DNA from: Rhizobium tropici CIAT 899
Lineage (GTDB): Bacteria; Pseudomonadota; Alphaproteobacteria; Rhizobiales; Rhizobiaceae
Direction of reading: 5' to 3'
NCBI RefSeq assembly: GCF_000330885.1
Contig: NC_020061.1
Location: forward strand, 62,001-126,000
Length of the DNA stretch: 64,000 nucleotides
Position numbers and translations under genes: made by a program
The notes under the pieces: generated by a model
Told to the model about the DNA's origin: nothing
What the model saw: the letters and a program-made list of their open reading frames with translations, nothing else
The model's database searches: none
Shown here: one piece after another, positions 3,795 to 48,322 of the stretch
Layout of the letters: every line of letters starts with the position of its first letter
Position numbering within the stretch: the first letter of the stretch is position 1

Positions 3795-4790
3795 TTGACC
3801 GAAATTCTGACGCTTAAGCTCGAGGCGACGTCGCTCACAACCAGTGAGGTCTCCGAATGGCTTAACGGTGAAAAGCACGACAATTTCTATCGGCCTCTCA
3901 GTAGCGATAGCCGCGGTCTTTTCTCATTCGGTGTCCATGGCGCCGGCGAGATGGTGGGCTGGACGGGATCGACTTCAACGGACCGCGCCTTTTCCGTCAC
4001 GATCGAGAATGATGGCTTCATGTTCTTTGTCGAGCATGGAACCTGCTATGACCTGGCAACAGGCGGCATAAGTCATGCTATCACGCCCTGCACGGGACTG
4101 CTGACGACGGCCGACCGCTATTCCGCGGTGAACATTCACGCAGGCTCTGTTGCGGAGGGATTCTGCATCCCAAGGAGCGCAGTAAACGCCGCTCTGATCA
4201 GCACCTTCGAACGCCTGCCACCTGTCGATTTCGAATTCGCTCCCCTGCAGGACCTGACAGCGGGACCGACGCCACCTCTTTTAAAACTCATGCGTTTCTT
4301 CCGAGATGAGATCTGCGCCGATCAAAACCTAGAGGTTTCTCCCCTTGCCCTGACGAGCTTCCAAGAGATGTTCTGTCTGCTGATGGTGCAGAATCTGCCT
4401 CACACGTTTTCGCAGACGAAATCGCCGGTGCAGACCATTGCGCCTCGCCAGCTTCGAAGAGCGCTGGAGTTTGCCAGAGCACATATCGCAATGCCTATCA
4501 CGATTGCGGACATGGCAGCGGCAGCGGGCGTCAGCGTGCGGGCACTTCAGATCAATTTTCGACGTTTTTTGAACGTCACTCCAATGGCTTATCTGAGGCA
4601 GCTCCGCCTTGATGGCGCACGTCGCGATCTTTTAACTGCCACGCCATCTGCGACGGTCAGTGAAATCGCGCGTCGCTGGGGGTTTATACAGATGGGCCGC
4701 TTCTCTCAGGAGTATCGTGCGGCTTTCGGCGTCCTGCCGAAATACGATCTAGGGCGCAGCTATGATAAGAATCGGACTACGGCGTTATAA
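3795..4790 (+). CDS. AraC-family transcriptional regulator
   Basis: A 331-residue protein. The N-terminal 200 residues form a sensor region of the AraC-binding-like type. The last 100 residues carry the two helix-turn-helix units of AraC/XylS proteins (ITIADMAAAAGVSVRALQINF, then VSEIARRWGFIQMGRFSQEYRAAFG), including the conserved GRFS motif. The start is TTG at 3795, chosen because GGTGGAG at 3784-3790 is a well-placed ribosome site. It has the same architecture as the second AraC protein at 27454-28494, and the two are probably distant paralogues. No obvious target lies next to it, because the flanks are relics. The inverted repeat at 3679-3700 is a candidate autoregulatory site. Its ligand is unknown. 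Confidence 0.85.
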   Translation: MTEILTLKLEATSLTTSEVSEWLNGEKHDNFYRPLSSDSRGLFSFGVHGAGEMVGWTGSTSTDRAFSVTIENDGFMFFVEHGTCYDLATGGISHAITPCTGLLTTADRYSAVNIHAGSVAEGFCIPRSAVNAALISTFERLPPVDFEFAPLQDLTAGPTPPLLKLMRFFRDEICADQNLEVSPLALTSFQEMFCLLMVQNLPHTFSQTKSPVQTIAPRQLRRALEFARAHIAMPITIADMAAAAGVSVRALQINFRRFLNVTPMAYLRQLRLDGARRDLLTATPSATVSEIARRWGFIQMGRFSQEYRAAFGVLPKYDLGRSYDKNRTTAL

Positions 4791-5370
4791 AGCGCATGTT
4801 GACACCCGTTCCATGTCGACGCGTGTTCGCGGATTGATAATGGACAGATCGAGGGCGATGGATCTGCCAGCTAGAGAAACTGAGCTCTCTGGGCAATTGC
4901 ACCTGCTATTTCGCTCGGGCTGAATTCCCACGCAGGTACCCTTCGTTCCAAGAGCGCTTTCCGACCCCCCATGGTCGGGGCGAACATACATAACGCGATC
5001 ACTGTCAAGCCGAGAGCGCCATCGTCGCTCGTCGATGGCCGAGAGCTTGTCATTGCTTAGGAAAGTTGTGAGCCAGATGTAACGGGTAGCATAGTTGCCC
5101 GGCGCCATCGCATCGGGCCGAACCCGTTATTCACCTGGCGCACATCACCAGATCTAGAAACAAAATTTCTCACAAATGTCATTGCCTGGAAACATTCAGA
5201 CGTCCCCGGCCGCCGGCAATAATCTAGGATATCGAGGCTCTTTCAGAGCGGCAGCTCTCAGATCGCTTTAGTCAATTCTGACATATAAGAGATTCGTTAC
5301 GGAGCCTGATTGCCGATGTATCAACCTGAATGTTATCGTCAATAACGCTCTGATCCCGGAATTCTCCAAT
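4791..5370. other. Non-coding stretch, nothing recognised
   Basis: Short frames on both strands have no recognisable motifs. In-frame text just upstream of 5371 (NLNVIVNNALIPEF) appears to belong to the patatin-like relic that follows, so decayed coding sequence begins before position 5371. Confidence 0.3.
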
Positions 5371-5805
5371 ATGTCGGACAGCACGTTGCCTGTGATGGCA
5401 AGGGCATATTCGATGTTGGTCAAGGCGCAGGAACGGGATTCTCTGATGGCCTTATACGGCTATGCCCGTCGGACTGAAGCCAAGCTTCATGTAGCCTCTA
5501 TTGATTGCCAGCTTCACTACGATATGTCCGATCCGTTCAATGAAACATATATGCGTTCGATTTTCGACCTTGGCACGCGGGAAATGTTGTCAGACGCGTT
5601 ATGGAAAGACGAGCCCCTGTTTACGGTCGCCGCGTCTCCATACGGCGGTCAACTGCTGGCAGTAATCCTCCCATCCATCCGAGAGCCAGGCTACTATTCC
5701 CCCGGAGGTAATGCGGTACTCCCCAAAGCCTCGAGCGCTCTATTCGCTTGGCGCAGGCCGCTCGGCAATGTCGAAGACTGCGGCGTTGTCCTGGATTTCC
5801 CTTAG
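5371..5805 (+). pseudogene. Relic resembling the C-terminal part of a patatin-like phospholipase
   Basis: The frame encodes STLPVMARAYSMLVKAQERD and LYGYARRTEAKLHVASID, followed by YDMSDPFNETYMRSIFDLG. I read this as the C-terminal half of a patatin-family hydrolase. The nucleophile (GXSXG) and oxyanion-loop regions are missing and no matching upstream frame is open, so it is most likely a truncated remnant. Its 3' end overlaps the convergent ligase gene by 66 bp, which also suggests erosion. The family assignment is from memory of the family pattern and is uncertain. Confidence 0.4.
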
Positions 5806-6804
5806 ACCCTTGTAGGAGGCGTGACGAAGGCTGCCGTCATGTGTCCAGCCGCGGAACTCGATTTCGGCAATAATTGTCGGCTGAGCAAAGACGAGATTCT
5901 TGCCCTTCAGCGGCACGACCGGCCTGGCTGTCTTCAGCTTATCGAGGGTCTTGCGCAGGTATTCGGCATCTTTCGTGTTGAAGCCGGTTCCGACCGAGCC
6001 GACATAGGCCCAATCATAACCTTTCCGCGCGGCGAGCAGCAGGCTACCGATGCCGCCGCGTGCCGAGGACGACTGTTCATAGCCGACGACCATGAAGCTC
6101 TCGCTTTGGATGCACTTGATCTTCTGCCAATCGCCGGTGCGCCCGGAGCGATATGGCCGGTCGCGGTGCTTGGCGATAATGCCCTCAAGCCCTGCCCGGC
6201 ATGCGTGCTCCAGCAGGACCTCGCCGTCCAAGGCCATCTCCTGCGACAGGCGAACGGCGCCGTCGCTCGTCGGTGAAATGAGATCCTCCAGCAGATGCCG
6301 CCGCACCGAAAGCTCGGTGCCAGTCAAGTCGTGGCCGTCAAGATAGAGAAGGTCGAACGCATATAGGATCGCTTCGTCTGACGCCTTTTTGCCGCCGCGG
6401 CCACCAAGCGAGCGCTGCAATGCCCCGAAGTCGGAGCGGCCTTGATTGTCAAGCACGACGGCTTCGCCGTCGAGAATGGCGCTGTTGACCCCGAGTGCAC
6501 GCGCCGCATCGACAATTGCCGGAAAGCGGTGCGTCCAGTCGTGGCCTCCGCGAGTGATGACCTTCACATCCTTCCGATGGATGTGGAGCGCCAGACGGTA
6601 GCCGTCCCATTTCACCTCGAACAGCCAGTCGGCTCCCTTCGGTGGTGTCGGCTTCAAAAGCGCCAGGCACGGCTCGATGCGCTCGGGCATCGGATCGAAG
6701 GGCAGGCTTGGCTGGGCGGGATCGCGCTTTCGCACCTGGCGTGACTGAAGGGTCGAGCCGGATTCGTCGAGCAGCGGCATCGAGGCTTTGCGTCTTGTCG
6801 TCAT
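5740..6804 (-). CDS. ATP-dependent DNA ligase (LigD ligase-domain type, NHEJ)
   Basis: A 354-residue ATP-dependent ligase with the nucleotidyltransferase motif FEVKWDGYRLA, whose lysine takes the AMP (about residue 65). It also has SAILDGEAVV, LYAFDLLYLDG, GLEGIIAKHRDRPYRSGR and KIK, all in the usual order, followed by an OB-fold ending in GWTHDGSLRHASYKGLRE. It lacks the polymerase and nuclease domains of full LigD. The gene overlaps the upstream ku remnant by an ATGA tetranucleotide, the standard bacterial non-homologous end-joining pair. The ligase itself looks intact, but its Ku partner is truncated here, so it would depend on a Ku encoded elsewhere. Confidence 0.88.
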   Translation of the reverse strand: MTTRRKASMPLLDESGSTLQSRQVRKRDPAQPSLPFDPMPERIEPCLALLKPTPPKGADWLFEVKWDGYRLALHIHRKDVKVITRGGHDWTHRFPAIVDAARALGVNSAILDGEAVVLDNQGRSDFGALQRSLGGRGGKKASDEAILYAFDLLYLDGHDLTGTELSVRRHLLEDLISPTSDGAVRLSQEMALDGEVLLEHACRAGLEGIIAKHRDRPYRSGRTGDWQKIKCIQSESFMVVGYEQSSSARGGIGSLLLAARKGYDWAYVGSVGTGFNTKDAEYLRKTLDKLKTARPVVPLKGKNLVFAQPTIIAEIEFRGWTHDGSLRHASYKGLREIQDNAAVFDIAERPAPSE

Positions 6805-8854: not shown

Positions 8855-11301
<2,447 letters not shown>

Positions 11302-11482
11302 GCGGGATGTTCCTTCTGCAGACGGTTGACAAAAACCAGAATCGGGCAGTCGCCGCGTGCGCGCCGCGGCAGTGCTAGGCAACCGCTGCGATCGGCGACG
11401 CGGACTCGGAAACCGCACAGCATGCACCGCTGCTGCCACCGATCGCAGCGGCACAGGGGCGGTTCCACGCGGGCGGGCGCGC

Positions 11483-12481
11483 TCATGCGCATGGCGCGTG
11501 CGTGAACAGATATGCGTTGGCCCGCTGCAGGATCTGCGCCAACCGTTCCGCACGCGGCCCCAGCGGGGCGATGGCATCCTCCGCGTCGCGCAACAGATCC
11601 GCGACGAACTGGCGCGCTGCCTTTAGCCCCATGATCGACGCGCAGGTCGGCTTCTGCGCCGCCGCGTCCTTGCCGGGCGTCTTGCCAAGGGTCGCTTTAT
11701 CCGCTGTCGCGTCGACAATGTCGTCGACCACCTGCAACGCCAGGCCGAAACAGGCGCTGTAGCGATCGAGCGCACAGTACAGCTCAGCGTTCGCGGCATC
11801 CTCCGCGATGGCGCATAGTGCGCCCATGCGAACGGACGCGCGCACTAGCGCTCCGGTCTTCATGCGGTGCATCGCCAAGATCCTGCCCAGCTCAACGTGC
11901 TTTCCAACCAGCGACAGATCTATGGCCTGCCCGCCTGCGGCACCCTCGGCGGACACTGCCTGCGCCAGTTCGCGCACGAGCGCGATACGGTTGTCGCCCG
12001 GGGCATCAAGGCTCGCCAGGGTCAGGAAGGCGTGCGCCTGCAGTGCATCCCCGACCAGGATCGCAGTTGCTTCGCCGAACTTGACGTGCACGGTCGGAAG
12101 GCCGCGGCGAAGCACGTCGTCGTCCATTGCGGGCAGGTCGTCGTGGACCAGGGTACAGGCGTGCATCATCTCGATGGCGGCGCCGACGACGTCGAGCATG
12201 TGCGCCGGGGTGTCGGCCAGTTCGCCGGCAGCCAGACAGAGCAAGGCGCGGGTGCGCTTCCCGCCATGCAAGGTAGCGTAGCGCATCGCCGCCATCAGCT
12301 CGGTCTCACCGTCGTCCTCGGGGCAGAGAAGACGCGTCAGCGCCTGTTCGACCCGCTTTGCGCCGTCCTGCATCCAGATCTCCGGCAGCAGCCTGCCGGA
12401 TGCGCCGGGCGCCTGCGCGCCCAATCCGCCGAGCGCGGAAATGCCAGTTTGGTCATCGTGTAGCGTGGAACCGGTCTGCAT
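11483..12481 (-). CDS. ggps: Geranylgeranyl diphosphate synthase (GGPS)
   Basis: A 332-residue trans-isoprenyl diphosphate synthase making the C20 precursor for gibberellin. The first aspartate-rich motif is LVHDDLPAMDDDVLRRG and the second is VVDDIVDAT. The helix-D region GGKRTRALLCL is also present. It is full length with both catalytic motifs intact. This matters because ggps is reported to be broken in some rhizobial copies of this operon. It lies 105 bp downstream of cyp117 and 181 bp upstream of cps, all on one strand. Confidence 0.93.
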   Translation of the reverse strand: MQTGSTLHDDQTGISALGGLGAQAPGASGRLLPEIWMQDGAKRVEQALTRLLCPEDDGETELMAAMRYATLHGGKRTRALLCLAAGELADTPAHMLDVVGAAIEMMHACTLVHDDLPAMDDDVLRRGLPTVHVKFGEATAILVGDALQAHAFLTLASLDAPGDNRIALVRELAQAVSAEGAAGGQAIDLSLVGKHVELGRILAMHRMKTGALVRASVRMGALCAIAEDAANAELYCALDRYSACFGLALQVVDDIVDATADKATLGKTPGKDAAAQKPTCASIMGLKAARQFVADLLRDAEDAIAPLGPRAERLAQILQRANAYLFTHAPCA

Positions 12482-12586: not shown

Positions 12587-13924
12587 TCATGAGAATCCGA
12601 TGCGGATTTTCATGGAGGGCTGTGCTGTCGGGTAATAGCGCCGGCCTTTTTCAGCGTCGCTCAGCAACCGCGGCCGCACCCCGGCCTTGTGCATGGTCAG
12701 TGCCAAGGCGATGCCGAACTGCACCAGTTCCAGCCATACCAGGTGGTAGCCGATGCAGACGTGTGGGCCGCTGCCGAACTGCAGCATGTCCACCGGCCGG
12801 ATCGGCCCCGTGCGTTGTAGCCACCGCGCCAGGCGGAACTGATCAGGCGCCTCGTGCAGCAGCGGTGAGGTCGAGAAATGCAGCAGCGGGATGCCCAGAC
12901 TGGTGCCCGCAGGAATGCGCCGCTGGCCGAGTTGTAATTCCTGCGTCGCGCGACGCGGTAAGAGCGAGGACGCCGGATGCATGCGCAGCGTCTCGCGAAA
13001 CAGCGCCTCGGCGACCGGGCACTGCGACAGGTCCGCGTGCCGGGTCGGCACCGCGCCCACGCGTTGCGCCTCCTCGACGAGGGAGTCCCACAGCTCAGGC
13101 TGCCGCGCCAGCTCGATCACCATCCAGGCCATCGTTGAGGCGGTGGTCTCGTGACCGGCAAGCAGCAGCAAGCGAACGTTGGCGACCAGGACGTCATCGG
13201 AGAGCGCGCCTTCGCTGCGATCGAACGCGCTCACCATGTCGTTGATCAACCCGGTGCGCGCGGCATGCGCGCGCGCGCCGCGGATGAACTGGCGCGACTG
13301 CGCGTCGATCCAGTCGCGGGCGGCGCGGCCGCGCCGAAAGGGCGTTCCGGGCAGGTCGATCGGCGGCGCGAGCATCAACTGCAGCAGTTGCCGGTACTTG
13401 CGATGCCACTCCGGCAGGTCTTGGGCGGGGATGCCCATGAGATAAAAGGTGAGCTTCAGCATCAAGTCGCCGGTCTCGGGCAGGATAGTTACTTCACCGC
13501 GCTCGCGCCATGCCTGCACCCGGGCCCGGATGACGGGCTCGAATAGCTCGCCAATGCCGGCCTCGGTCAGGCCCCTCGGCAGGAATGCCGACTTGATCCC
13601 ATCGCGCGCCTGCCGATGCGCGCTACCGTTCAGAGTGACCAACGTTCCGCCAAGGATTTCGGGTGCAATCTCTTCAATCAGTGCCGAGGACACGTCCTTG
13701 TGCCGGAGCAACGCAAACGCATCCGGATCCAGGCACGTCATCAGTTGTCCGGCAGGGCCAAAATCCAGCCAGAAATGGCTGCCCAGCGTCCGTTCCGCGC
13801 GCCGCAGCAGGCGCGGCAGGTCACAAACGATGGCGGGAAGATGCCCGACCAGGGGGAAAGCGCCGGGCATGACCGGGATGTCGTCCCGCAGCCGGTGCCG
13901 ACGGTTCAGCGGGTTGAGCAGCAT
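12587..13924 (-). CDS. cyp117: Cytochrome P450 CYP117 (ent-kaurene oxidase)
   Basis: A 445-residue P450 with the I-helix oxygen-binding motif LLLAGHETTASTM, the K-helix ExxR (FRETLRMHP) and the haem-binding loop QFGSGPHVCIGYHL with its axial cysteine. By operon position and family it is CYP117, which oxidises ent-kaurene in three steps to ent-kaurenoic acid in characterised rhizobia. It is cytosolic with no membrane anchor, as usual for bacterial P450s. The start at 13924 lies 5 bp after the sdr stop, so the two are co-translated. All key residues are present. Confidence 0.92.
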   Translation of the reverse strand: MLLNPLNRRHRLRDDIPVMPGAFPLVGHLPAIVCDLPRLLRRAERTLGSHFWLDFGPAGQLMTCLDPDAFALLRHKDVSSALIEEIAPEILGGTLVTLNGSAHRQARDGIKSAFLPRGLTEAGIGELFEPVIRARVQAWRERGEVTILPETGDLMLKLTFYLMGIPAQDLPEWHRKYRQLLQLMLAPPIDLPGTPFRRGRAARDWIDAQSRQFIRGARAHAARTGLINDMVSAFDRSEGALSDDVLVANVRLLLLAGHETTASTMAWMVIELARQPELWDSLVEEAQRVGAVPTRHADLSQCPVAEALFRETLRMHPASSLLPRRATQELQLGQRRIPAGTSLGIPLLHFSTSPLLHEAPDQFRLARWLQRTGPIRPVDMLQFGSGPHVCIGYHLVWLELVQFGIALALTMHKAGVRPRLLSDAEKGRRYYPTAQPSMKIRIGFS

Positions 13925-13929
13925 GTCTA

Positions 13930-14775
13930 TTACCTCTCTGGCGCCGCGGCCGCTTCGGCGGTGTCACTGGTCGGCCGCGCGGCACGGCTGTTGCCACCAT
14001 CGGCGTATGTCGGCACATGCGTCAGCATGCCGCCGTCGATGCACACGACTTGGCCGGTGATGAACGCAGCATCGTCGGAGAGCAGGAAAGCCACCAGCGC
14101 GGCCACGTCCTCGGGGCGGCCGACGTGCCGCAGGAGCTGGTGCCGGCGCAGATGCCGTTGCATGCACTCGTCCAACTTGTCGAGGAGACGTTCGGTCATG
14201 ATAAGACCCGGCGCAACCGCGTTGCAGCGGATCTGCGCGTGACCATATTGGGTGGCGAGCGAGGCCGACAGCATATTCATCGCGGCCTTCGACGCGGCGT
14301 AGGAGGTCAGCGCGGTGTCACCGCTGAGCCCCTGGCACGAGGACATGTTGACGATCGCGCCACCGCCACGGGCGATCATGCGCGGAATGGCCTGGCGGCA
14401 GCAGAGCAGCGTGCCGCGCAGATTAGTCGCCATCGTTTCATCCCAAACCGCCAGGTCCAGATCGAGGATCGCGCGGTCGCATGGGGTCAGATGCATGGCG
14501 CTCGCGTTGTTCACCAGCAGATCGACCCCACCGAAGTGCCGCTCCGCCGCCTCAAATAGCGCGGCCACAGCCTGCGCATCGGCGATGTCCATGGCCAAGG
14601 CCAGCGCGTGGCCAGCTTCGGCCGCGATCTGCGCCGTGCACGCGGTGGCCGCTGAGCCGTCAATGTCGGCCACGACCACCCTGCCGCCCTCGCGCGCAAT
14701 GGCGAGGGCGCATGACTTCCCGATGCCGGCGCCGGCGCCGGTCACCACGGCCACCTTGCCCTCAAACCGTCCCAT
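13930..14775 (-). CDS. sdr: Short-chain dehydrogenase/reductase of the gibberellin operon (SDR-GA)
   Basis: A 281-residue classical SDR. The NAD-binding TGAGAGIGKS motif sits at the N-terminus, followed by NNASA, the catalytic serine region NMSSCQG and the active-site tyrosine/lysine in SYAASKAAMN. In this pathway the SDR completes oxidation of gibberellin A12-aldehyde to GA12. The ATG at 14773-14775 follows AGGAGGA and overlaps the end of the ferredoxin gene by 14 bp. An upstream extension of the frame is not used. The C-terminal tail of about 30 residues is alanine-rich and variable. Confidence 0.92.
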   Translation of the reverse strand: MGRFEGKVAVVTGAGAGIGKSCALAIAREGGRVVVADIDGSAATACTAQIAAEAGHALALAMDIADAQAVAALFEAAERHFGGVDLLVNNASAMHLTPCDRAILDLDLAVWDETMATNLRGTLLCCRQAIPRMIARGGGAIVNMSSCQGLSGDTALTSYAASKAAMNMLSASLATQYGHAQIRCNAVAPGLIMTERLLDKLDECMQRHLRRHQLLRHVGRPEDVAALVAFLLSDDAAFITGQVVCIDGGMLTHVPTYADGGNSRAARPTSDTAEAAAAPER

Positions 14776-15070
14776 CGTGTCCTCCTGGATTGCATTGGTC
14801 TTTCGTGGCATGTCGCTCGGCCTCTGCCAGAGAAGGCGTAGGGTCGGCCCGGGCTGGCTCGCCATCCCCAGCGGCGCTTTCGACGACCCAAATGGCGGCA
14901 ACTGGGCACTGGCTGGCAGCGAGCCGCACGGCGGCGTGCAGCGCTTGGGGGACCGTCACCACGCACACTTCGGCCACGCCGTCCAGTTCGCGCTGGCGAA
15001 AGACGCCCGGCAGGGTTAGCACACACTGCCCAGTGGTTCCGCAAAGATCCTGGTCGACCACGACGCGCAT
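14762..15070 (-). CDS. fd: 3Fe-4S-type ferredoxin of the gibberellin operon (Fd-GA)
   Basis: A 102-residue ferredoxin. The cysteines are in DLCGTTGQCVL (C-x5-C) and AASQCPVAA, the pattern of bacterial 3Fe-4S P450-partner ferredoxins. In characterised operons it supplies electrons to CYP114 for the ring contraction to GA12-aldehyde. The ATG at 15068-15070 lies one base after the cyp114 stop, so translation is coupled. The 3' end overlaps the sdr start by 14 bp. The C-terminal 40 residues extend beyond the fold and look disordered. Confidence 0.9.
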   Translation of the reverse strand: MRVVVDQDLCGTTGQCVLTLPGVFRQRELDGVAEVCVVTVPQALHAAVRLAASQCPVAAIWVVESAAGDGEPARADPTPSLAEAERHATKDQCNPGGHDGTV

Positions 15071-15071
15071 C

Positions 15072-16364
15072 TCAGCGCCCCGCCTGCGCATGCAGCCGCA
15101 CGGGCAGGGCGCGGAATGTCCTAAGGAACGCGGATGGCTCCAGGGTCGGCTGATCGGCGAGTACGAGCGTAGGGAAGCGCGCCTCGATCCGCGGCAGGCT
15201 CTCGGCTAATTGCACCCGGGCCAGTTGCGCCCCGAGGCAGAAGTGGATGCCGTGGCCGAAGCTCAGCATGATCTTCCCGTCAATCGACATGCCAGGACTG
15301 GTGCCGTAGAACCGTACGGGGTCGAAGCGGTCGGGATCGGCAAAGGCGTCCGGGTCACGATTGCCGGCGGCGATCAGCACGCGCACGTCCGCGTTCTTCG
15401 GGATTACCACGCCGCCCAGTTCGATGTCGCGCTGTGCGATTCGCGGAATGGAGCTGAACATGGCGGGTGCGTTGCAGCGCAAGACTTCTTCGACGAATGC
15501 CTCGACCCCCTTGGCATCTCCCTGCAGCCAGTGCCGCTGTTCGGGATGCGCCAGCATCGCCAGGACCGCATGGTCAATGGTCGCAGCAGTGGTGGCGAAG
15601 CCACCCAGCAGCATGCCCCATAGCATGCTGATCAACTCCACATCCGACAGCATATCGGCATCATCGCCGTGTGCGCCGACCAGCATCGACACGACGTCCT
15701 GGCGGGGATCGGTGCGCCTGCGCTGTATGAGGTCGCCGAAGTAGGCCTTAACTTTGGCGCTGGCTGCGTCCGCCTCGGCGAGCTGGGGATCGCTGGCGTG
15801 CGGGCTCAGGCCTTCCAGGATGGCGCCGATGTTGGCGGCGAGCCCGAACATGTCCTCCTGGGGTATGCCGAACAGTTCGGCAAAGACCAGCATTGGCAAG
15901 GCAAGCGCGAATTCGCGATGCAGGTCCACTGCCTCCCCGCGCTCAAGCGCGTGCGCCATGCCGTCCAGGCGCGCTGCGACGATGTGCACTATGCTCGGCC
16001 GCAGGTTGTCGATCTCGCGCATCGTGAAATCGCGGGAGATCAGCCGGCGCAGACGCGTATGCGTCGGTGGATCCTTCATCGCTAAAGTGGACGCCAGCAG
16101 ATTGAGCGACAGGCTGGTTGCCGCACGCGGGAAATAGCGCGCCAGTTCGCCCGGCGCCGGTCCCCGAAACGCATCGCCCGTGGCCTTGAGTGCCCAGTAG
16201 ATGTCGGCGTGGCGGCTCAACAGAAAGAGGCCTGACGCTGCCCGGTGCACCGGATCGTGCTCGCGCAACCACCGCATGAACGGATATGGGTCGTGGATGC
16301 ACGCCGGCGACGCGAGTTCGGCGAAGGCGTCCCGGCATACCGCGGTTGTTTCTTTCACGTCCAT
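15072..16364 (-). CDS. cyp114: Cytochrome P450 CYP114
   Basis: A 430-residue P450 with the I-helix [14 protein letters not shown], the ExxR motif in VEEVLRCN and the haem loop [18 protein letters not shown] with the axial cysteine. The GGFATT sequence replaces the usual AGxET, with alanine in place of the acidic residue. CYP114 with its ferredoxin turns ent-kaurenoic acid into GA12-aldehyde, including the B-ring contraction. The atypical I-helix fits an unusual chemistry. It is tightly linked to fd (one-base gap) and lies 89 bp after cyp112. Confidence 0.92.
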
Positions 16365-16453: not shown

Positions 16454-17656
16454 TCACCAGAACACCGGAAACTCCTCGAACCCGCCGGTGATGATCTCCT
16501 TGCGCAACTTCAGTTTTTCGGGCGCCACGGCGAGGCGCAGCGCGGGAAAGCGCTGAAAGATCGAACCGAACACCGCCTTGAGTTCCAGCCTGGCTAGCGC
16601 AACGCCGATGCAATAGTGCGGCCCGTAGGAGAACGCCAAGTGGGGCTTTCCTTCGCGTCCGATGTCGAAGATTTCCGGGTCCTCGAAATGGCGCGGATCG
16701 AACGCCGTCGCCGGCAGGCCGACCAGCACCTTGCTCTCCGCGGGAATACGCACGCCCGCTATGGTCACGTCGGTTCTCGGGTAGCGCATGACGCCGTCCC
16801 AGCCCGCGCCCGGGGGGTACATACGCAGGATTTCCTCCACTGTCTTGTCCACAAGGGATGGATCGCCGACCAGGCGTTCGCGCTGTTGCGGATGACGGAA
16901 CATCGCCAGCAGGCCGAATTCGATCTGCGCGACGGTGCTCTCGTGCCCCGCCACCAGCATGCCCGCCGCCAGGCCGATCGCCTCTTCCTCGGTCGCTTTG
17001 CCCTGATCGACCGCCGCGAGCAGATCCGTCAGCAGGTTGTCGCCGGGGTCCTCGCGCTTGTCCCGCATCTTGCCGCGAATGTAGGCGCGCAGCTCTTCCC
17101 AGGCCAGGCGCGACGCGCTGCGCGGGCCGCTTTCATGCTGGTGCGTCATCACCTCGTCGGACAGCCCGGCGAAAAAGGCGTGATCCTCATAGAGCACGCC
17201 CATCAGCGCGCTAATGACAATGGCCGGAAGCGGAAAGGAGAGGTGGAGCCGCAGGTCGGCGGGCTGGGGCTGGGCCGCCAGCGTCTCAAACAACTGCGCG
17301 GCGATCGCCTCGACCTTCTGCGCGAGCAGCTCCATATTGCGGTCGCTGAAGGCCCGTCCCACGATCGTGCGTAACCGCGCATGCTCGTCCCCCTCGTGCG
17401 AGACCAGCCACCCCGGCGAACCGAGAATCACTGAATCCGGGGTAAATGCCGCCGGCGGCATCCCCGCGGGCCGGAATGCAGTGTCGGAGAGCACCGCCTT
17501 GGCCTCGTCGTAGCCTGTCACCCACCAGCCTTCGTGCCCGGACGGGAAGCGCACGCGATGGATCGGACCGTTGGCGCTTAGCGTTAGCATCTCGGGCGAG
17601 GGCTCGATGTGATTGAGGCGCCACATCGGCAGCGTCGGCAAGGGTTGTTCGGACAT
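16454..17656 (-). CDS. cyp112: Cytochrome P450 CYP112
   Basis: A 400-residue P450, the first intact gene of the gibberellin operon. Motifs are the I-helix GMLVAGHESTVAQ, ExxR in VEEILRMYPPG and the haem loop FSYGPHYCIGVALARLEL. In studied rhizobia CYP112 removes carbon 20, converting GA12 through GA15 and GA24 to GA9. The ATG at 17654-17656 lies 9 bp downstream of the stop of a decayed P450 fragment (probable cyp115). Without cyp115, GA9 rather than bioactive GA4 is the expected end product. Confidence 0.92.
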   Translation of the reverse strand: MSEQPLPTLPMWRLNHIEPSPEMLTLSANGPIHRVRFPSGHEGWWVTGYDEAKAVLSDTAFRPAGMPPAAFTPDSVILGSPGWLVSHEGDEHARLRTIVGRAFSDRNMELLAQKVEAIAAQLFETLAAQPQPADLRLHLSFPLPAIVISALMGVLYEDHAFFAGLSDEVMTHQHESGPRSASRLAWEELRAYIRGKMRDKREDPGDNLLTDLLAAVDQGKATEEEAIGLAAGMLVAGHESTVAQIEFGLLAMFRHPQQRERLVGDPSLVDKTVEEILRMYPPGAGWDGVMRYPRTDVTIAGVRIPAESKVLVGLPATAFDPRHFEDPEIFDIGREGKPHLAFSYGPHYCIGVALARLELKAVFGSIFQRFPALRLAVAPEKLKLRKEIITGGFEEFPVFW

Positions 17657-17665
17657 GGTGGCAGT

Positions 17666-17960
17666 TCACTCTCTAAGCGATGGAAAGGGCGGAAGGTGAC
17701 TGGCAGGCGACGGGCAGCGAACGACGGAAGACGGCATGGAGGCGATGTCCTCCACCGCGATTGTCAGCGCCAGGTCCTCCAGCGGCACGAACGGCGCGGG
17801 GAAGGTGCATCATAATTCTAGGCGCGCCGGCGCAGCGCCCAGGCGGAATTCCGACGCTTCGCCGAGCGACAGGTGCGGGTCGTGCCAGATGACGTCGAGC
17901 CTGTCGGAGTCGGCATAGATTGCCTAGTCGTAGAGCTTGGTGAATGAGGTTCGACCCTAC
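17666..17960 (-). pseudogene. 3' remnant of a cytochrome P450, probably cyp115
   Basis: The frame ending at 17666 reads AIYADSDRLDVIWHDPHLSL, then EFRLGAAPARLEL, then CTFPAPFVPLEDLALTIAVED. This is the end of a bacterial P450: the meander, the haem loop and the last helices. It carries in-frame stops at 17924-17926 and 17810-17812. In the haem loop the axial cysteine is replaced by arginine (EFRLG instead of HFCLG). Intact operons place cyp115, the GA9-to-GA4 3-oxidase, at exactly this position. The identity as cyp115 is inferred from position. Confidence 0.75.
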
Positions 17961-18184
17961 CCGCCAGCGACGTCTCCGCCAACACGACCTCCGGACCAGT
18001 CCCACACCGCCGGTGGCAGTTAAACTAGATCGCATCCAACACGTCCCTGCATTTTCTCGGGGTCCACAACCACGCGCCAAGTCATTCCCACAGCGAACCG
18101 TCGGATCAGACGCGAACAGCGACGCGGCGCCGTGTGCGTCCCAAAGACCATCGCACTGCGATTGGTGATGATGCCGCAAACAGA

Positions 18185-18199
18185 GCAAATCGCGTGCCG
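18185..18199 (-). promoter_or_regulatory. Sigma-54 (RpoN) -24/-12 promoter of the gibberellin operon
   Basis: On the minus strand the sequence is CGGCACG-CGAT-TTGC, with the invariant GG and GC separated by exactly ten bases. Only the first base deviates from TGGCACG-N4-TTGC. It lies about 225 bp upstream of the P450 remnant and about 530 bp upstream of cyp112. The NifA-type site 45 bp further upstream strengthens the call. Confidence 0.8.
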
Positions 18200-18243
18200 A
18201 AGTGAAATCGCAGGCTCAGCGGGCACTTCCTAGCGGCGCGTAG

Positions 18244-18259
18244 TGTCAGGTTACTGACA
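18244..18259 (-). promoter_or_regulatory. NifA upstream activator sequence
   Basis: A perfect TGT-N10-ACA palindrome (TGTCAGGTTACTGACA). Its centre is roughly 78 bp upstream of the predicted start site of the sigma-54 promoter at 18185-18199, a normal position for NifA binding. The arms extend as CAG/CTG, so the dyad is stronger than chance. Confidence 0.8.
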
Positions 18260-18984
18260 TTGAGTCTCAATGCCGACAACCGGCGGAGCAAGTGCCCGAC
18301 AAAGCCCTGTTCGTGCGCTGAATGTGAGGAGCTGTCCTTGCGCGATATTTCAAGCATCCGGATTGCCTGCAACAGGCGTGGTTTGCTGGAAACCACTCCG
18401 ATGTCGGCGGCAACGATCAGGAAAATGAAACCCGCTCTCCGACATCTCGCCGGGTCGGATGGGCATGCGACGCGGAAGCCGCAGGGTCGGGTCGCCGAGC
18501 TTGGGAACCTACCTGCCTTGGTAGTTCGCGCACGCGAAATGCGACTGGTATATTCCATATCGTGCATACGCTCCAACTAGCGACATGCTACCCGACTTTG
18601 CCCTGTCGAAGTAGGTAGTCGCGGGAAAAGCCGGACGATCTGCAAGCGCGTTCGGTTTTTTCTTTGTTAGGTTCTTCCCTCAAATAATGCGGTGAATGGA
18701 CTATCAGCGGGCGCGTTGCTATCTGCTACATGCGAACGAAATAGAAAGGGAGACCCGACACACGGGTCAGAGTTCCGGGTATCACCCTTCAAGTTGAAGG
18801 AAATTGGATTGTTTGCGCCGTCGCGGAAGGCGATGAATGGAACTCTTCTCGCTTTGCCATGAATCTTACATCCTCTCTAGTTGAGATATTTCTAAAGTAT
18901 CATCCTTGCCGATTGTCGTTCGAGGCGTGACAGGAGAGAGCGAATCTGCTTCTTCCTAATCAAAGCATTTTGGAAGACGCCAAT
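18260..18984. other. Non-coding stretch upstream of the NifA site
   Basis: No gene recognised on either strand. The sequence GGATTGTTTG at about 18804 resembles part of a reversed nod box but has no matching second half. Confidence 0.35.
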
Positions 18985-20696: not shown

Positions 20697-21953
20697 ATGT
20701 TGTATAACTTCCTGCTTGCGTCCTGGGGGACGTCGGGTAATCTGGGCCCGTTGCTGACTGCAGCTCGACAACTGCAACGGGTTGGCCATAGCGCCCGCAT
20801 TATGGCTGATCCAGAGATGCGGCGTGAAGTGGCTGCGGCGGGTTTCGACTTCGTCTCCTGGCGGCGTGCCCCGATGGGGATCGACGCGGATCCTGCCTGC
20901 TTTTCAGACATGCAGGACTGGTTCCAAAAGGCGGTGTTCGGCCCGGCGCCAGCCTACGCAGCCGACGTCCAGGATGAGATCGGCCGCATACCGACGGATG
21001 CTGTCATTGCCATCGATATGTTGTTTGGTGCCGTGTTGGGCGCCGAAGCCGCTGGCGTGCCGATCGCAATGTTGTCACCCCATGTGAGCCTTCGCCCTTT
21101 GCCAGGAATTCCGCCGGCCGCCAGCGGATTGGCGCAGCCGCAGACGCCAGAAGAGCGGATCGCGATCGCGGCGGCGAACGAAAATTGGGCTTGCTTCCTG
21201 GACCAATTCCTTTCGCTTCTAAACGAGGCGCGTGCCGGCCTCGGCCTGTCCGGTTTGGCCAGGACGGTGGATTTATTTGAGTGTGCCGATCGGTACTTGC
21301 TGGCGATCAGCCGGACCTTCGATTTTGAGGCCGACCTTCTACCGGACAACGTTCGTTATGTTGGGCCACTGCTGGAGCAGCCAAATTGGTCAAGGAGCTG
21401 GAAGGCGCCTTGGCCTGTGGACGCCAATCGACCTCGTGTGCTCGTCGCCTGCAGCTCCGGCGCTCAGGGTCAAGACGACTTGGTTCAACGGATCATTTGC
21501 GCATTGGGTACGCTGGACGTGCACGCGGTGGCGACCATCGGACCTCATGTTGACGCGGGGAAGCTGGTCGCCCCCGCGAACGTGCATCTGTTGCACGGCG
21601 CTCCGCATGACACAGTGATGAAGGAAGTCTGCCTTTTGATAACGCAGGGCGGCCACGGCACCGTCAGCCGGGGGCTGATAAACGGTCTACCGCAACTGGT
21701 GCTCCCCAACGGGCGCGACCAGGGGGATAATGCTGCACGAGTTGTGTCGAAGGGAGCTGGTCTTCGACTACCCCCGAGTGCTAGCGAAGCCGAGATCGCC
21801 CATGCCGTCAGTGGCCTGTTACAGGAGCCGCGCTATCGCGATGCGGCGCGCCGCTTGGGCGATGGCATCAAAGCTGAAATCGCCGCCTCCGGTCTCATTG
21901 ACGAATTGGAGGCTATGGTGGCAAATAAATCCATTGTTGGATCGGCGACCTGA
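20697..21953 (+). CDS. GT1-family glycosyltransferase (UGT/macrolide type)
   Basis: A 418-residue GT-B glycosyltransferase. The N-terminal domain begins LLASWGTSGNLGPLLTAARQ, the acceptor-side motif of this family. The C-terminal domain holds the donor-binding signature ITQGGHGTVSRGLINGLPQL followed by LPNGRDQGDNAARV, where His, Gly and the terminal Asp-Gln contact the nucleotide sugar. Such enzymes glycosylate small lipophilic acceptors such as sterols, polyketides or flavonoids. The ATG at 20697 follows GAGGTGAGGC. It leads a same-strand series with a hydrolase and an exported peptidase. A half nod box and a leader hairpin lie upstream. The acceptor is unknown. Confidence 0.85.
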   Translation: MLYNFLLASWGTSGNLGPLLTAARQLQRVGHSARIMADPEMRREVAAAGFDFVSWRRAPMGIDADPACFSDMQDWFQKAVFGPAPAYAADVQDEIGRIPTDAVIAIDMLFGAVLGAEAAGVPIAMLSPHVSLRPLPGIPPAASGLAQPQTPEERIAIAAANENWACFLDQFLSLLNEARAGLGLSGLARTVDLFECADRYLLAISRTFDFEADLLPDNVRYVGPLLEQPNWSRSWKAPWPVDANRPRVLVACSSGAQGQDDLVQRIICALGTLDVHAVATIGPHVDAGKLVAPANVHLLHGAPHDTVMKEVCLLITQGGHGTVSRGLINGLPQLVLPNGRDQGDNAARVVSKGAGLRLPPSASEAEIAHAVSGLLQEPRYRDAARRLGDGIKAEIAASGLIDELEAMVANKSIVGSAT

Positions 21954-22270
21954 TGCGGGCGGCTTGATCGTGCATTCGGATTGTTCGATTTTATCGTCGG
22001 TGCGCTCAGGCATTTCCTCCATGGGTATTTAGGCACCGATATCTTTCCTTCGATGCTTGCCTACCGGGCAAGTCGATCTTCGTCTCCGGCTTGGTGCCGC
22101 TCACAGTTCATCATGTTCAAGTGCTGCCCCATTTGCCACGGGCATTCTCAACTGGATCAGTTTGCAATCGGCAAGCCATTGCTCTCGCGGTCTGAGTGCC
22201 GCGGGTCGTTCCCCTCTATGACACAAACACTCTACCCTTTGCTGGCGAGCCCAAAAAAGAGCCGAACCCC
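21954..22270. other. Short gap between glycosyltransferase and hydrolase
   Basis: No gene recognised. Frames contain short hydrophobic strings (for example FVSGLVPLTVHHVQVLPH) that might be eroded membrane-protein sequence, but I cannot assign them. Confidence 0.3.
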
Positions 22271-23131
22271 ATGAATGTAGCCGAATCGAGCCCCGTCCTG
22301 ATGAACCGCGCCGGGGTGTGCCTTGCGCACTTCGAAGCAATATCGGCTTCGCCCCTAAGTCCGCCGCTCGTCCTGATTCACGGCTGGACCGGCGATCACA
22401 GGATATTCACGCCGCAGATCGAATATTTTGCTAAAAGTCGGCACGTCATGGCGGTAAACCTCCGCGGTCACGGAGACAGCGACGCGCCGAAGCAGGAGTA
22501 CACGATCGAGGATTTTGCTGACGACGTAGCGTGGCAATGCAGCGAGCGGAACCTGGTGAAACCGCTGATCATCGGCCACAGCATGGGTGGATCGGTCGCA
22601 CTCGAGCTGTGCGGCCGCCATCCTGAGCTGGCCTCTGGTGTGGTGATGATCGATTCTATTGTCACGCCCCGGTGGGCGCTTCGCGACAGCCCCGAAATTG
22701 ATCAGTTCCTGGATGCAATTTCGAGCTCAAACTATCGGGAGGTTTTGCGAAAAAACGCGTGGTCCATGGCCCTCGACTACGACGACCCTTCCAGGCGCGA
22801 GAGCATCCACAACACCTATATCCGCGCCTCGTGCGAGAAGACACCGCAGCATGTGGCGTATTCTGCAATGCGCAATTTCATCCTCAACTATGATGCGTCT
22901 CCTGCGGCAACGCGTTGCAAGGTCCCGATGGCCTACATCGCTGCCGATGTGCCGCTGGTGAGCGCTGCATGTGATCTCGACTGGCTAAAGGTTCGCTGCT
23001 CCCAACTCGTTTTGGCCAAGACGCTGTTGGCTGGCCATTTCAATACCATCGAGGTGGCTGACCAGGTAAATGCGATGCTCGACCGCTTCTTAGCAGTCGG
23101 CCTTAGGCCGCGCCCCACCACCCGGATGTAA
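22271..23131 (+). CDS. Alpha/beta-hydrolase fold protein
   Basis: A 286-residue alpha/beta hydrolase. Visible elements are the oxyanion region VLIHGWTGDHRIF, the strand-turn VNLRGHGDSDAP, the nucleophile elbow IGHSMGGSVALE (Ser about residue 108) and a C-terminal histidine in LLAGHFNTIEV. The family covers esterases, lipases, dehalogenases and lactonases, so the substrate cannot be read from sequence. No signal peptide is present; the protein is cytosolic. The ATG at 22271 was preferred because residues upstream of it do not fit the family. It lies between a glycosyltransferase and an exported prolyl oligopeptidase on the same strand. Confidence 0.82.
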   Translation: MNVAESSPVLMNRAGVCLAHFEAISASPLSPPLVLIHGWTGDHRIFTPQIEYFAKSRHVMAVNLRGHGDSDAPKQEYTIEDFADDVAWQCSERNLVKPLIIGHSMGGSVALELCGRHPELASGVVMIDSIVTPRWALRDSPEIDQFLDAISSSNYREVLRKNAWSMALDYDDPSRRESIHNTYIRASCEKTPQHVAYSAMRNFILNYDASPAATRCKVPMAYIAADVPLVSAACDLDWLKVRCSQLVLAKTLLAGHFNTIEVADQVNAMLDRFLAVGLRPRPTTRM

Positions 23132-23887: not shown

Positions 23888-23903
23888 TTGGCACAGCTCT
23901 TGC
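23888..23903 (+). promoter_or_regulatory. Sigma-54 promoter of the prolyl oligopeptidase gene
   Basis: TTGGCACAGCTCTTGC has the invariant GG and GC ten bases apart and matches TGGCAC and TTGC fully. The ATG of the peptidase gene is 63 bp downstream, giving a leader of about 50 bases. There is no perfect NifA palindrome, only near matches. Confidence 0.75.
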
Positions 23904-23966
23904 CGAGACGAGAGGCGGAGCGGTTTGTTTCAACCGCTTGGACGTTGGATTTCGGCGAGGTAAATT

Positions 23967-26156
23967 ATGCGCGGTACATTTCTGAATAGATTGGTGTTGG
24001 CTATGGTTTTGGCGATGGCATTCACCATGGCGGCTTCTGCCAAGGCGCCGATGACCACTGTTGCCAAGCCGATCGATTCCAACCCTAACAACGCTCCCAA
24101 CGACGCCGCCGACCCTCGCGCCTATCTGAATGAGATTGACGGCGAAAAGGCGATGGTCTGGGTGAAGGCGCATAACCAATCAACCGTCAACAAACTGTCG
24201 AAAGATCCACGCTATGGCGAATATCAGGCTGACATTCTGAAGATCTTGCAAGCCACCGATCGCATTGTTCGGCCCGGCTTCGCGCATGGCAGCACGATCG
24301 ACAACTTTTGGCAGGACGGCACGCACGTGCAGGGTCTGTGGCGGCGGACGAGCTGGGAAGCCTACAGGTCTGGAAGCCCTCAATGGCGCGTCATTCTCGA
24401 TGTCGAGGCGCTGTCCAAACTCGAGGATAAGACCTGGGTGCTCAGAAGCGAGAACTGCCTGCCGCCCGTCGACAATCTCTGCCTGCTCAGCCTGTCTGAT
24501 GGCGGCAAGGATGCAGATGTGGTGCGCGAATTCGACATCGCCAGGGGCCAGTTCGTTAAGGAAGGCTTCGTCCTGCCTGAGGGCAAGCAGTCGGCGACTT
24601 GGGTGGACGAGAACACCATCTACGTGACTCGGGAATGGACGCCGGGCGAAGTGACGGATTCCGGCTACGGCTACGTCACCAAGGTGCTGAAGCGGGGCCA
24701 GAGCCTCGATCAGGCGGTCGAGATTTTTCGCGGCGACAAGAAAGACGTCTCGTCTCGCCGCAGCGTGATGCGCGACATTGATGGCAAGTATGTGATGGAC
24801 ATCTCCTATCGCGACCTCGACTCGTTCAACACAGAACTAGCCTTCTACCCGAACGGTCACACCGATAACCGCAAGGTCGTTCTGCCATTCCCGACCACAG
24901 CTGCTTTAAGTGGCTACTACAAGGGCCAGGCAATCTACAATTTGAAGTCGGACTGGGCCTCGGCCAATGGCACCGTCTTCCACAATGGCGCGCTAATCGC
25001 TTTCGATCTCCGCGCGGCGCTCGCCGATCCGGCGCACGTTGAACCACTTGTGCTGTTCATGCCGAACGACCACCAGTCTGTCCAAGGGATTACCCAGACG
25101 AAAAATCATCTTGTGCTGTCGATCCAGTCGAATGTCAGCAGCGAGGTACGCAGCTTTGATTTCGGCAAGAATGGCTGGTCGTCCTTTAAATTGGCCCTGC
25201 CGGAAAATTCGACTTTGTCCGTGACGTCGAGCGACAATGAGAGCGATCACCTGTTCATCTTCTCGGAAGGTTTCCTCGAACCCTCCACCCTTTTTTACGC
25301 GGATGCTGCAAGCGGCAATGTCGAGAAGCTCAAGTCGAGCCCGGAACGCTTCGATGCTGAAGACCTGCAAGTACAGCAGTTCTGGGCGACCTCGGAGGAT
25401 GGAACGAAAGTTCCCTACTTCCTCGTGGCGCGCAAAGATATTAAGCTCGACGGCACGAACCCCACCATCCTCTATGCTTATGGCGGTTTTGAAATTTCAA
25501 TGCGTCCCACCTATTTGGCAACACTTGGCAAGTTGTGGTTGGAAAAGGGGGGTGCCTACGCGCTGGCCAATATACGAGGGGGTGGCGAATTCGGACCAAA
25601 ATGGCACGAGGCCGGTTTGAAAACCCATCGTCAGCGTGTCTATGACGACTTCCAGGCCGTGGCGCAGGACCTGATCGCGAAGAAGGTTACCTCGGCACCG
25701 CATCTCGGGATCATGGGTGGTTCGAACGGCGGCCTGCTGATGGGCGTGCAACTGACCGAGCGCCCTGATCTATGGAACGCGGCCGTGATCCAGGTGCCGC
25801 TTCTCGACATGGTCAACTTCACCCACATGTCGGCAGGAGCCTCGTGGCAGGGCGAATATGGCAATCCGGACGATCCTGTCGAAGGCGCCTTTCTGCGCTC
25901 GATCTCGCCATATCATAACGTAAGGGCGGGTGTGGGTTATCCGGAGCCTTTCTTCGAAACCTCGACCAAAGATGACCGCGTCGGTCCGGCGCACGCGCGC
26001 AAAATGGCCGCCCTGTTCGAAGATATGAGTCTGCCCTTCTACTATTACGAAAACATCGAGGGCGGCCACGCCGCTGCCGCCAACCTGCAGGAACGCGCGC
26101 GCCTCTACGCGCTCGAATACACCTACATGTCTCAAAAACTCATGGACAATAAGTGA
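23967..26156 (+). CDS. Exported prolyl oligopeptidase-family serine peptidase (S9A)
   Basis: A 729-residue protein. Residues 1-27 form a Sec signal peptide ending ASA, so it acts in the periplasm or outside. A propeller region follows, then the catalytic domain with serine in GIMGGSNGGLLMG (about 571), aspartate in STKDDRVGPAHARK (about 670) and histidine in IEGGHAAAANL (about 701). It resembles the y4nA/y4qF peptidases of the NGR234 symbiotic plasmid. S9A enzymes cut short peptides after proline. A sigma-54 promoter lies 63 bp upstream and GAGGT precedes the ATG. It may trim peptides during symbiosis, but the substrate is unknown. Confidence 0.9.
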   Translation: MRGTFLNRLVLAMVLAMAFTMAASAKAPMTTVAKPIDSNPNNAPNDAADPRAYLNEIDGEKAMVWVKAHNQSTVNKLSKDPRYGEYQADILKILQATDRIVRPGFAHGSTIDNFWQDGTHVQGLWRRTSWEAYRSGSPQWRVILDVEALSKLEDKTWVLRSENCLPPVDNLCLLSLSDGGKDADVVREFDIARGQFVKEGFVLPEGKQSATWVDENTIYVTREWTPGEVTDSGYGYVTKVLKRGQSLDQAVEIFRGDKKDVSSRRSVMRDIDGKYVMDISYRDLDSFNTELAFYPNGHTDNRKVVLPFPTTAALSGYYKGQAIYNLKSDWASANGTVFHNGALIAFDLRAALADPAHVEPLVLFMPNDHQSVQGITQTKNHLVLSIQSNVSSEVRSFDFGKNGWSSFKLALPENSTLSVTSSDNESDHLFIFSEGFLEPSTLFYADAASGNVEKLKSSPERFDAEDLQVQQFWATSEDGTKVPYFLVARKDIKLDGTNPTILYAYGGFEISMRPTYLATLGKLWLEKGGAYALANIRGGGEFGPKWHEAGLKTHRQRVYDDFQAVAQDLIAKKVTSAPHLGIMGGSNGGLLMGVQLTERPDLWNAAVIQVPLLDMVNFTHMSAGASWQGEYGNPDDPVEGAFLRSISPYHNVRAGVGYPEPFFETSTKDDRVGPAHARKMAALFEDMSLPFYYYENIEGGHAAAANLQERARLYALEYTYMSQKLMDNK

Positions 26157-47953: not shown

Positions 47954-48322
47954 CCTTAACTCCGTTGATTGCATCTCTGCGGATATTTGTCGTCAACCTC
48001 GACATTCTCGCTGCCGACTGGGTTTTTGGCAGGTTATCGATGCAGTGTTCGCCAGAACCCTTTGACGCCCACAGGATCAATCGTCCGGTCCGTTCTGTGC
48101 CCTATGTCGTTGACTTCAATTTTGTGACGACCAGCCGAGATCAGGACCGGTGCCCTTGCTGCGGCTTGCTCCCGGCGGTCTGCGATAAACACACAAGTTT
48201 CGTGCCAAACAAAAGTGGGTCTACGGCAGAGCGATCACTCCGAGGGTCGATCTATCTGGCGTTCAAAAAAGTCTTGAGTCCGACAATAAGCGACATAGCA
48301 GACGCGTTGCAGTCTGAAGATT
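47954..48322. other. Non-coding stretch between aquaporin and IS256 copy B
   Basis: A plus-strand frame (47965-48324) with a CPCCG motif ends inside the IS terminus and has no recognisable family. A TGT-N11-ACA dyad lies at 47988-48004, one base longer than a NifA site. Confidence 0.3.

Follow-up and report, generated by a model that had tools for sequence, protein, structure and literature searches.

Capture of a porin 5' end as the probable origin of NifA/sigma-54 control of the gibberellin operon in Rhizobium tropici CIAT 899

The gibberellin (GA) operon of Rhizobium tropici CIAT 899, a bean-nodule bacterium, very probably stands under a NifA/sigma-54 promoter that was captured together with a porin 5' end and fused to cyp115; judged by homology, the control region derives from a different gene. 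What appears to be new here is the origin of the promoter. NifA control itself, and captured nif fragments in Mesorhizobium loti R7A, were already known. The window (the whole stretch analysed, 64,000 nucleotides) lies on C3 (549,467 bp), the symbiotic plasmid of the strain, and the presence of a GA gene cluster on the R. tropici pSym has been reported (PMC3557214). Rhizobial GA operons pose two puzzles. Why have most of them lost cyp115? And how did an operon shared with pathogens become nodule-induced? If capture of a NifA promoter by fusion into cyp115 did both, there would be one answer to the two questions, traceable at the DNA junctions. The features discussed are the following.

18263..18278, minus strand: UAS1, TGTCGGCATTGAGACT, a one-mismatch NifA-type site (TGT-N10-ACT), 19 bp further upstream than UAS2
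18244..18259, minus strand: UAS2, TGTCAGTAACCTGACA, the perfect TGT-N10-ACA palindrome of the initial annotation, its centre at about -78 from the predicted start
18184..18200, minus strand: -24/-12 sigma-54 promoter, TCGGCACGCGATTTGCT, with a predicted transcription start near 18173
18027..18303, minus strand: promoter and 5' leader captured from a Bradyrhizobium outer-membrane beta-barrel (porin) gene (77-80% identity), with a porin-like ATG at 18033-18035
17909..18021, minus strand: degraded porin codons ~31-68 (~4-30 deleted), with two in-frame stops
17708..17908, minus strand: cyp115 remnant, residues 331-398, with one in-frame stop, in frame with the porin remnant; junction at ~17908/17909 by protein alignment
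16454..17656, minus strand: cyp112 (cytochrome P450), with which the intact part of the operon begins
15072..16364, minus strand: cyp114 (cytochrome P450), named by operon order (PMC7273348)
13930..14901, minus strand: short-chain dehydrogenase of the GA operon (Pfam)
12587..13924, minus strand: cyp117 (cytochrome P450; Pfam, named by operon order)
11483..12481, minus strand: geranylgeranyl diphosphate synthase (polyprenyl synthetase family; Pfam, named by operon order)
9754..11577, minus strand: ent-copalyl diphosphate synthase (Pfam, named by operon order)
8855..9874, minus strand: ent-kaurene synthase, 86.7% identical to the L050 protein

The operon runs entirely on the minus strand from cyp112 (17656) to ks (8855), and Pfam scans recover three cytochrome P450s, a short-chain dehydrogenase, a polyprenyl synthase and two terpene cyclase/synthase-like proteins, all encoded by long open frames that match their families. 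The order cyp112, cyp114, sdr, cyp117, ggps, cps, ks, from which the names are taken, is that of the rhizobial p-cyp115-type GA operon, and the open reading frame list holds a 109-residue frame (14762-15091) where a ferredoxin gene would be expected, between cyp114 and sdr. Two neighbours may be mentioned: an ATP-dependent DNA ligase (PF01068, PF04679) at 5740-6804 on the minus strand, downstream of the operon, and, divergent from it at 20697-23131 on the plus strand, macrolide-type glycosyltransferase-like and alpha/beta-hydrolase frames that all score below family cut-offs.

Are the promoter motifs real, and are they unusual? The initial annotation had described a TGT-N10-ACA palindrome and a -24/-12 promoter on the minus strand upstream of the GA operon; both are where it placed them, with 43 bp between the perfect site and the promoter 17-mer and 62 bp between the one-mismatch site and the same 17-mer. 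The -24/-12 element differs from YTGGCACG-N4-TTGCW by one base (C for T before GG), and its matrix score of 11.1 bits is below those of all 14 training promoters (18.2-24.4). In the window, TGT-N10-ACA occurs four times against 7.1 expected, and there are 39 strings within two mismatches of the -24/-12 pattern against 29.9 expected. Motif counts alone were therefore dropped as support, TGT-N10-ACA being no commoner than chance in the window. Either motif alone is unremarkable; their combination is unusual. Among the eight window sites that score at least as high as the GA promoter with the sigma-54 matrix, one has a perfect TGT-N10-ACA 20-130 bp upstream, and it is the GA promoter itself. The composite with 20-50 bp spacing is found three times in the 6.69-Mb genome (6,686,334 bp searched, four contigs) versus once for a reversed-pattern control, and on the symbiotic plasmid at the GA operon alone. 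The exact 17-mer occurs once in this genome and in 4 of 394 genomes of the family, this one included, at one copy each; the other three copies adjoin cyp112 as well. A nifA gene lies on the same contig (C3:256317-257981, TIGR01817 at 745.9 bits with a cut-off of 528.85). Neither an E. coli-type sigma-70 promoter nor an intrinsic terminator was found in 17500-18900, and the GA leader holds no strict FixK/FNR box. Elsewhere in the window, TTGGCACGAAACTTGTG at 48192-48208 (minus strand) has TGTCGGACTCAAGACT 61 bp upstream, of the TGTCGG...GACT type like UAS1 of the GA operon, with a same-strand frame at 47198-47974; and a sigma-54-like TTGGCACAGCTCTTGCC at 23888-23904 (plus strand) precedes an oligopeptidase-like frame (23967-26156) by about 60 bp, the nearby UAS being imperfect.

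Which of these elements does evolution keep? Up to 1500 bp upstream of cyp112 were compared in 81 sequences, the window and 80 relatives (the best 80 of 128 confirmed cyp112 relatives with named organisms), some on contigs that are shorter. The exact 17-mer precedes cyp112 in 22 of the 81, the window counted, in Rhizobium, Bradyrhizobium and Sinorhizobium. Over 20 non-redundant rows, picked by a slightly loosened 17-mer after L002, L003, L070, L074, L078 and L079 had been dropped as copies or divergent, the 17-mer ranks second of 274 windows in conservation. UAS1 ranks 15 of 275 in the same rows. UAS2 comes 137th of 275: the right half hardly varies, but the left half reads TGT in 2 of 20 rows. 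A perfect palindrome at the UAS2 position occurs in just 3 of the 80 relatives (L002, L003, L023), of which L002 and L003 are identical to the window across the 1500 bp compared. The perfect palindrome of UAS2 is thus mostly specific to the R. tropici lineage and UAS1 is the better conserved of the tandem pair. It also follows that NifA would have to accept imperfect sites, because the perfect TGT-N10-ACA is absent from most members of the class. UAS1 now becomes a NifA-site candidate for mutation in R. tropici alongside 18244-18259.

Where does the promoter come from? A DNA search with window 18330-18150 finds, besides GA operons, paralogous promoter copies in the two Bradyrhizobium genomes that carry L050 and L043. 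Behind five of six such copies (L111-L115, L123) follows a frame with the related start MRPGVLLLGA, MRSGVLLLGA or MRSRVLFLGA, and the sixth (L114) has a frame of similar WNW...GG type further down. The two proteins scanned both match the outer-membrane beta-barrel family PF13505 (L115, 564 residues; L113, 368 residues); donor-type promoters thus lie upstream of beta-barrel genes in genomes G394 and G395. Homologues of the L115 protein, among the 120 listed of 333 that passed, come from Bradyrhizobium wherever an organism is named, with one exception from Mesorhizobium. L111 and L112, the porin copies most similar to the GA leader, are followed by short frames and seem to be broken. Window 18303-18027 aligns with the promoter and 5' leader of L111 at 80% identity (E 8e-65) and 18021-17911 with its codons ~31-67 at 79% (E 5e-23). 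L111 carries both promoter and UAS motifs, and its counterpart of UAS1 is the perfect TGTCGGTATTGAGACA. From these motifs the donor porin may itself be NifA-controlled. In Bradyrhizobium diazoefficiens, bll1944, a 'porin family protein' and a candidate member of the leader porin family, is listed as a NifA target (PMC6515984, PMC4926349). R. tropici itself offers no source: in its genome the sole match to the promoter at E <= 0.01 is the GA site, and the porin search returns no close copy, giving two distant outer-membrane-protein matches (37 and 39% identity) and a remnant at C3:79906-80025. Among 72,556 plasmid records, 58 have a porin-leader match (47 Rhizobium, 10 Bradyrhizobium, one Sinorhizobium), and at least one of the Bradyrhizobium matches is annotated as a beta-barrel gene.

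The porin leader precedes cyp112 in 24 of the 81 loci, several of them near-copies of one another. These loci were picked by leader homology, not by the motif, and 22 of the 24 carry the exact 17-mer, L073 and L080 being one base off; L078 and L079 have a more diverged version of it and give no cyp115 match in the junction alignment. In 18 of the 24 both sides align at DNA level with porin codon 67-69 joined to cyp115 codon ~331, and protein alignment places the same junction in the window, L002 and L003 (21 of 24 in total), where the DNA alignment starts at cyp115 codon 320 and overlaps the porin part. The three misfits are L030, by its look a later deletion, L068 and L075. In L050 and L043 the porin alignment starts at codon ~35; in L043 cyp115 residues 331-408 still align, at 92%. 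Because 21 of 24 loci share the junction, a single porin::cyp115 fusion, made in a Bradyrhizobium-like donor and then spread, is most likely. The direction of transfer is suggested by the longer porin genes elsewhere as against the truncated copy here, and by the full-length cyp115 of the Xanthomonas operon L064.

Is the porin the only donor? A leader homologous to nifH is found in 19 of the 81 loci, 13 of them Mesorhizobium. It consists of the nifH promoter and about 64 nifH codons: in L037 the match to the promoter, leader and first codons of its own nifH, the NifH being confirmed by Pfam, extends over 431 bp at 73% (E 9e-58). The homology stops at codon 63-64 in 18 of the 19 loci. Homology to cyp115 sets in again at codon 381-383 in 11 loci, and at codon 373-389 in 18. 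In L008 and L016 the nifH fragment persists but the sigma-54 promoter is a different one, of which the L008 genome holds a 37-bp copy (89%) before a frame that by eye resembles a molybdate-binding protein. By this homology test neither leader is present in the remaining 38 loci: five Ensifer/Sinorhizobium, three Xanthomonas, 19 Bradyrhizobium, L078, L079 and nine others. Promoter-plus-UAS pairs occur in 10 of 17 nifH-type, all five Ensifer-type and both L008-type leaders. The Ensifer/Sinorhizobium pairs lie 77-81 bp before cyp112; two of these loci (L005, L007) have a full-length cyp115 upstream, with a cyp112 fragment in between in L005, and a pair is found in L018 ~910 bp before cyp112. Upstream of cyp115 in L005, L007, L018, L051 and L064, and at L066 and L081, no pair was found. 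A sigma-54-like ATGGCACGCCTTTTGCT (17.7 bits) sits ~400 bp upstream of the full-length cyp115 in L005 and L007, where TGT-N10-ACA is lacking and a separate NifA-type promoter lies just before cyp112. The 19 Bradyrhizobium operons (e.g. L012, L022) have a minimal cyp115 remnant, or none that was found, and within 1500 bp no convincing combination of NifA promoter and UAS, so that NifA may not control every GA operon. A conserved GTGGCATATCATTTGCA in five of them (L014, L022, L028, L032, L039) was rejected as a NifA promoter since it has no UAS, and the alignment of the other 14 revealed no shared promoter.

How were the leaders acquired? On a quick cyp112-cyp114 DNA tree, in which 25 of 75 inner branches are open, the porin label (26 rows, including L078 and L079) requires 12 changes, of which starred branches force at least four; the nifH label (17 rows) requires six, with at least two forced. 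Both labels are clustered yet scattered, and a simple history of one origin per clade was rejected on these counts; leaders were probably exchanged between operon lineages. Judging from their leaders, rhizobia appear to have brought the GA operon, which they share with plant pathogens, under NifA-type promoters on more than one occasion, by gene fusions that may have destroyed cyp115. That remnants of cyp115 stand at the 5' end of GA operons in rhizobia was already described (PMC7273348). Our tentative proposal, which we regard as a serious possibility, is that a pathogen-type operon was domesticated at least twice, when the 5' end of a NifA-controlled gene (nifH in one lineage, a porin with NifA-type motifs in another) recombined into cyp115. 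In a single event the operon would have come to depend on nitrogen-fixing conditions and lost its GA4-making enzyme, with GA9 left for the plant to activate; on this view cyp115 would have disappeared as a side effect of promoter capture, in place of, or in addition to, selection against GA4. It may well be instead, though we hold this too with some doubt, that cyp115 decayed first and that porin and nifH 5' ends were joined to a dead gene, a sequence of events compatible with NifA control in which capture is not the cause of the loss of GA4 formation. Some rhizobia do have short cyp115 remnants (residues 395-408 in L006 and L010-L013) and neither leader, the reconstruction in PMC7273348 infers one early loss of cyp115, and leaders could have replaced one another in turn. 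However, the porin-type (class A) junction is in frame in the window, residues 331-408 still align at 92% in L043, and break points differ between porin-type and nifH-type leaders.

Does NifA act on these operons? That it does is not new, having been published for B. diazoefficiens and M. loti. In nodules of a B. diazoefficiens nifA mutant, blr2143, blr2144 and blr2145 change by log2 -4.9, -4.5 and -4.2 (PMC4926349 Table 3, which gives one value per row, taken here as the nifA column). In PMC6515984 Table 2, blr2144 and blr2145 are marked as NifA+RpoN1 targets and blr2146, blr2147 and blr2148 are not (two of five operon genes). The transcription start of blr2143 is among those that PMC4842269 mapped only in nodules, and an msi071::lacZ fusion in M. 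loti R7A gave 618 units in the wild type versus 6.3 in a nifA2 mutant (PMC3538637 Tables 1 and 4). How do these operons relate to the window? The kaurene synthase of L050 is identical over 291 residues to PDB 4w4r, blr2150 of B. diazoefficiens USDA 110, and L050, used as a stand-in for that strain, has the promoter class of the window and the porin::cyp115 junction; blr2143 would then be the porin::cyp115 fusion frame. The open-access literature yielded no expression data for the R. tropici operon. By analogy with these orthologues, NifA/sigma-54 control is very likely in R. tropici, and here the claim of the initial annotation holds in its core, backed by promoter conservation, nifA on the same replicon and the B. 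diazoefficiens data; the palindrome it singled out is poorly conserved. Its further statement that GA synthesis is restricted to nitrogen-fixing bacteroids goes too far: all five of blr2144-blr2148 are induced in free-living microoxic B. diazoefficiens (PMC6515984 Table 2), and an operon can be controlled by NifA without being confined to bacteroids.

The picture that emerges would be as follows. NifA would bind the two tandem sites, 18278-18263 and 18259-18244, and thereby allow the sigma-54 promoter at 18200-18184 to transcribe the GA operon; this would happen mainly in the nodule, under low oxygen and with nifA expressed. As the sequence shows, a Bradyrhizobium outer-membrane beta-barrel gene supplied the promoter, the leader and ~68 initial codons, which were joined to cyp115 at codon ~331. 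The fusion most likely arose once, is now present in Rhizobium, Bradyrhizobium and one Sinorhizobium, and in R. tropici has become a pseudogene with three in-frame stops in all. Transcription would cross this ~0.5-kb leader into cyp112 and the rest of the operon.

Could a different protein activate the promoter? The promoter might depend on sigma-54 with another enhancer-binding protein (e.g. of NtrC or DctD type) as activator, TGT-N10-ACA being there by chance. The lack of conservation of the perfect palindrome and its unexceptional frequency would fit, and six of seven NifA-like matches in the genome fall below the nifA cut-off and are probably, at least in part, other sigma-54 activators. 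This is nevertheless very unlikely, as B. diazoefficiens operon genes fall more than 16-fold in the nifA mutant (PMC4926349, no value being taken as that of the nifH mutant), the donor-type promoter L111 has its perfect UAS at the homologous place, and promoter-plus-UAS pairs recur in the nifH-, Ensifer- and L008-type leaders. Might the leader be a fossil, the captured promoter being dead in R. tropici and cyp112 silent or driven from elsewhere? The low matrix score, the stops, the deletion of porin codons ~4-30 and the length of pseudogene to be crossed all lean that way. Against them, the -24/-12 element is among the most conserved stretches of the leader and exact in nearly all porin-leader loci, neither a sigma-70-like alternative nor an intrinsic terminator was found in 17500-18900, and the operon genes retain their long open frames, which makes a dead promoter highly improbable. 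NifA acting on the captured promoter thus stays the preferred reading.

Comparison with known systems places the R. tropici operon among its relatives. Like the USDA 110 operon (blr2143-blr2150) it has a truncated cyp115 at its 5' end (PMC7273348), and the dependence of the first genes of that operon on NifA and RpoN is published (PMC4926349, PMC6515984); the R. tropici fusion differs from that of the stand-in L050 by its in-frame stops, its porin deletion and the perfect palindrome at UAS2. It resembles the diterpenoid operon msi071-msi064 of M. loti R7A in its probable NifA-sigma-54 control, as described there in PMC3538637. The -24/-12 of R7A is, unlike that of R. tropici, the nifH sequence (PMC3538637), and the Mesorhizobium loci compared here, a set that does not include R7A, have the nifH promoter and ~64 nifH codons as leader, not a porin. 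The cyp112 genes of Xanthomonas (L064, L065, L076) are orthologous. Unlike R. tropici, Xanthomonas L064 has a full-length cyp115, and none of the three loci has a promoter-plus-UAS pair upstream, L065 offering 91 bp; L076 gives no adjacent cyp115 match within the sequence examined. The porin::cyp115 leader would show cleanly how a gene fusion can rewire regulation, and it now occurs in several genera, carried by symbiotic plasmids and islands. The open-access literature searched contained no statement of a porin or nifH origin of GA leaders, although one may exist in print elsewhere.

Promoters joined to gene fragments are found before other operons too. In M. loti R7A, a nifH fragment (msi321-320) and a nifQ fragment (msi332-331) are likewise a promoter with a piece of nif gene before an unrelated operon (PMC3538637 Table 1); in R. 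tropici, unlike those, the captured piece stems from an outer-membrane protein gene, and its fusion cuts short a gene of the hormone pathway. Outside the window on the R. tropici pSym (L122 ~5700-6050, C3 278.7 kb), a NifA-type UAS and CTGGCACGGCTTTTGAA are followed by what resembles, by eye, a degenerate start of nifH, with a prolyl oligopeptidase-family gene downstream; this is perhaps another captured nifH 5' end. In M. loti DSM 2626 and Ensifer LCM 4579, too, other genes have fragments resembling the nifH promoter or start in front of them (L118 ~4734-5000; L119 ~4830-5200), so capture of nifH 5' ends looks recurrent.
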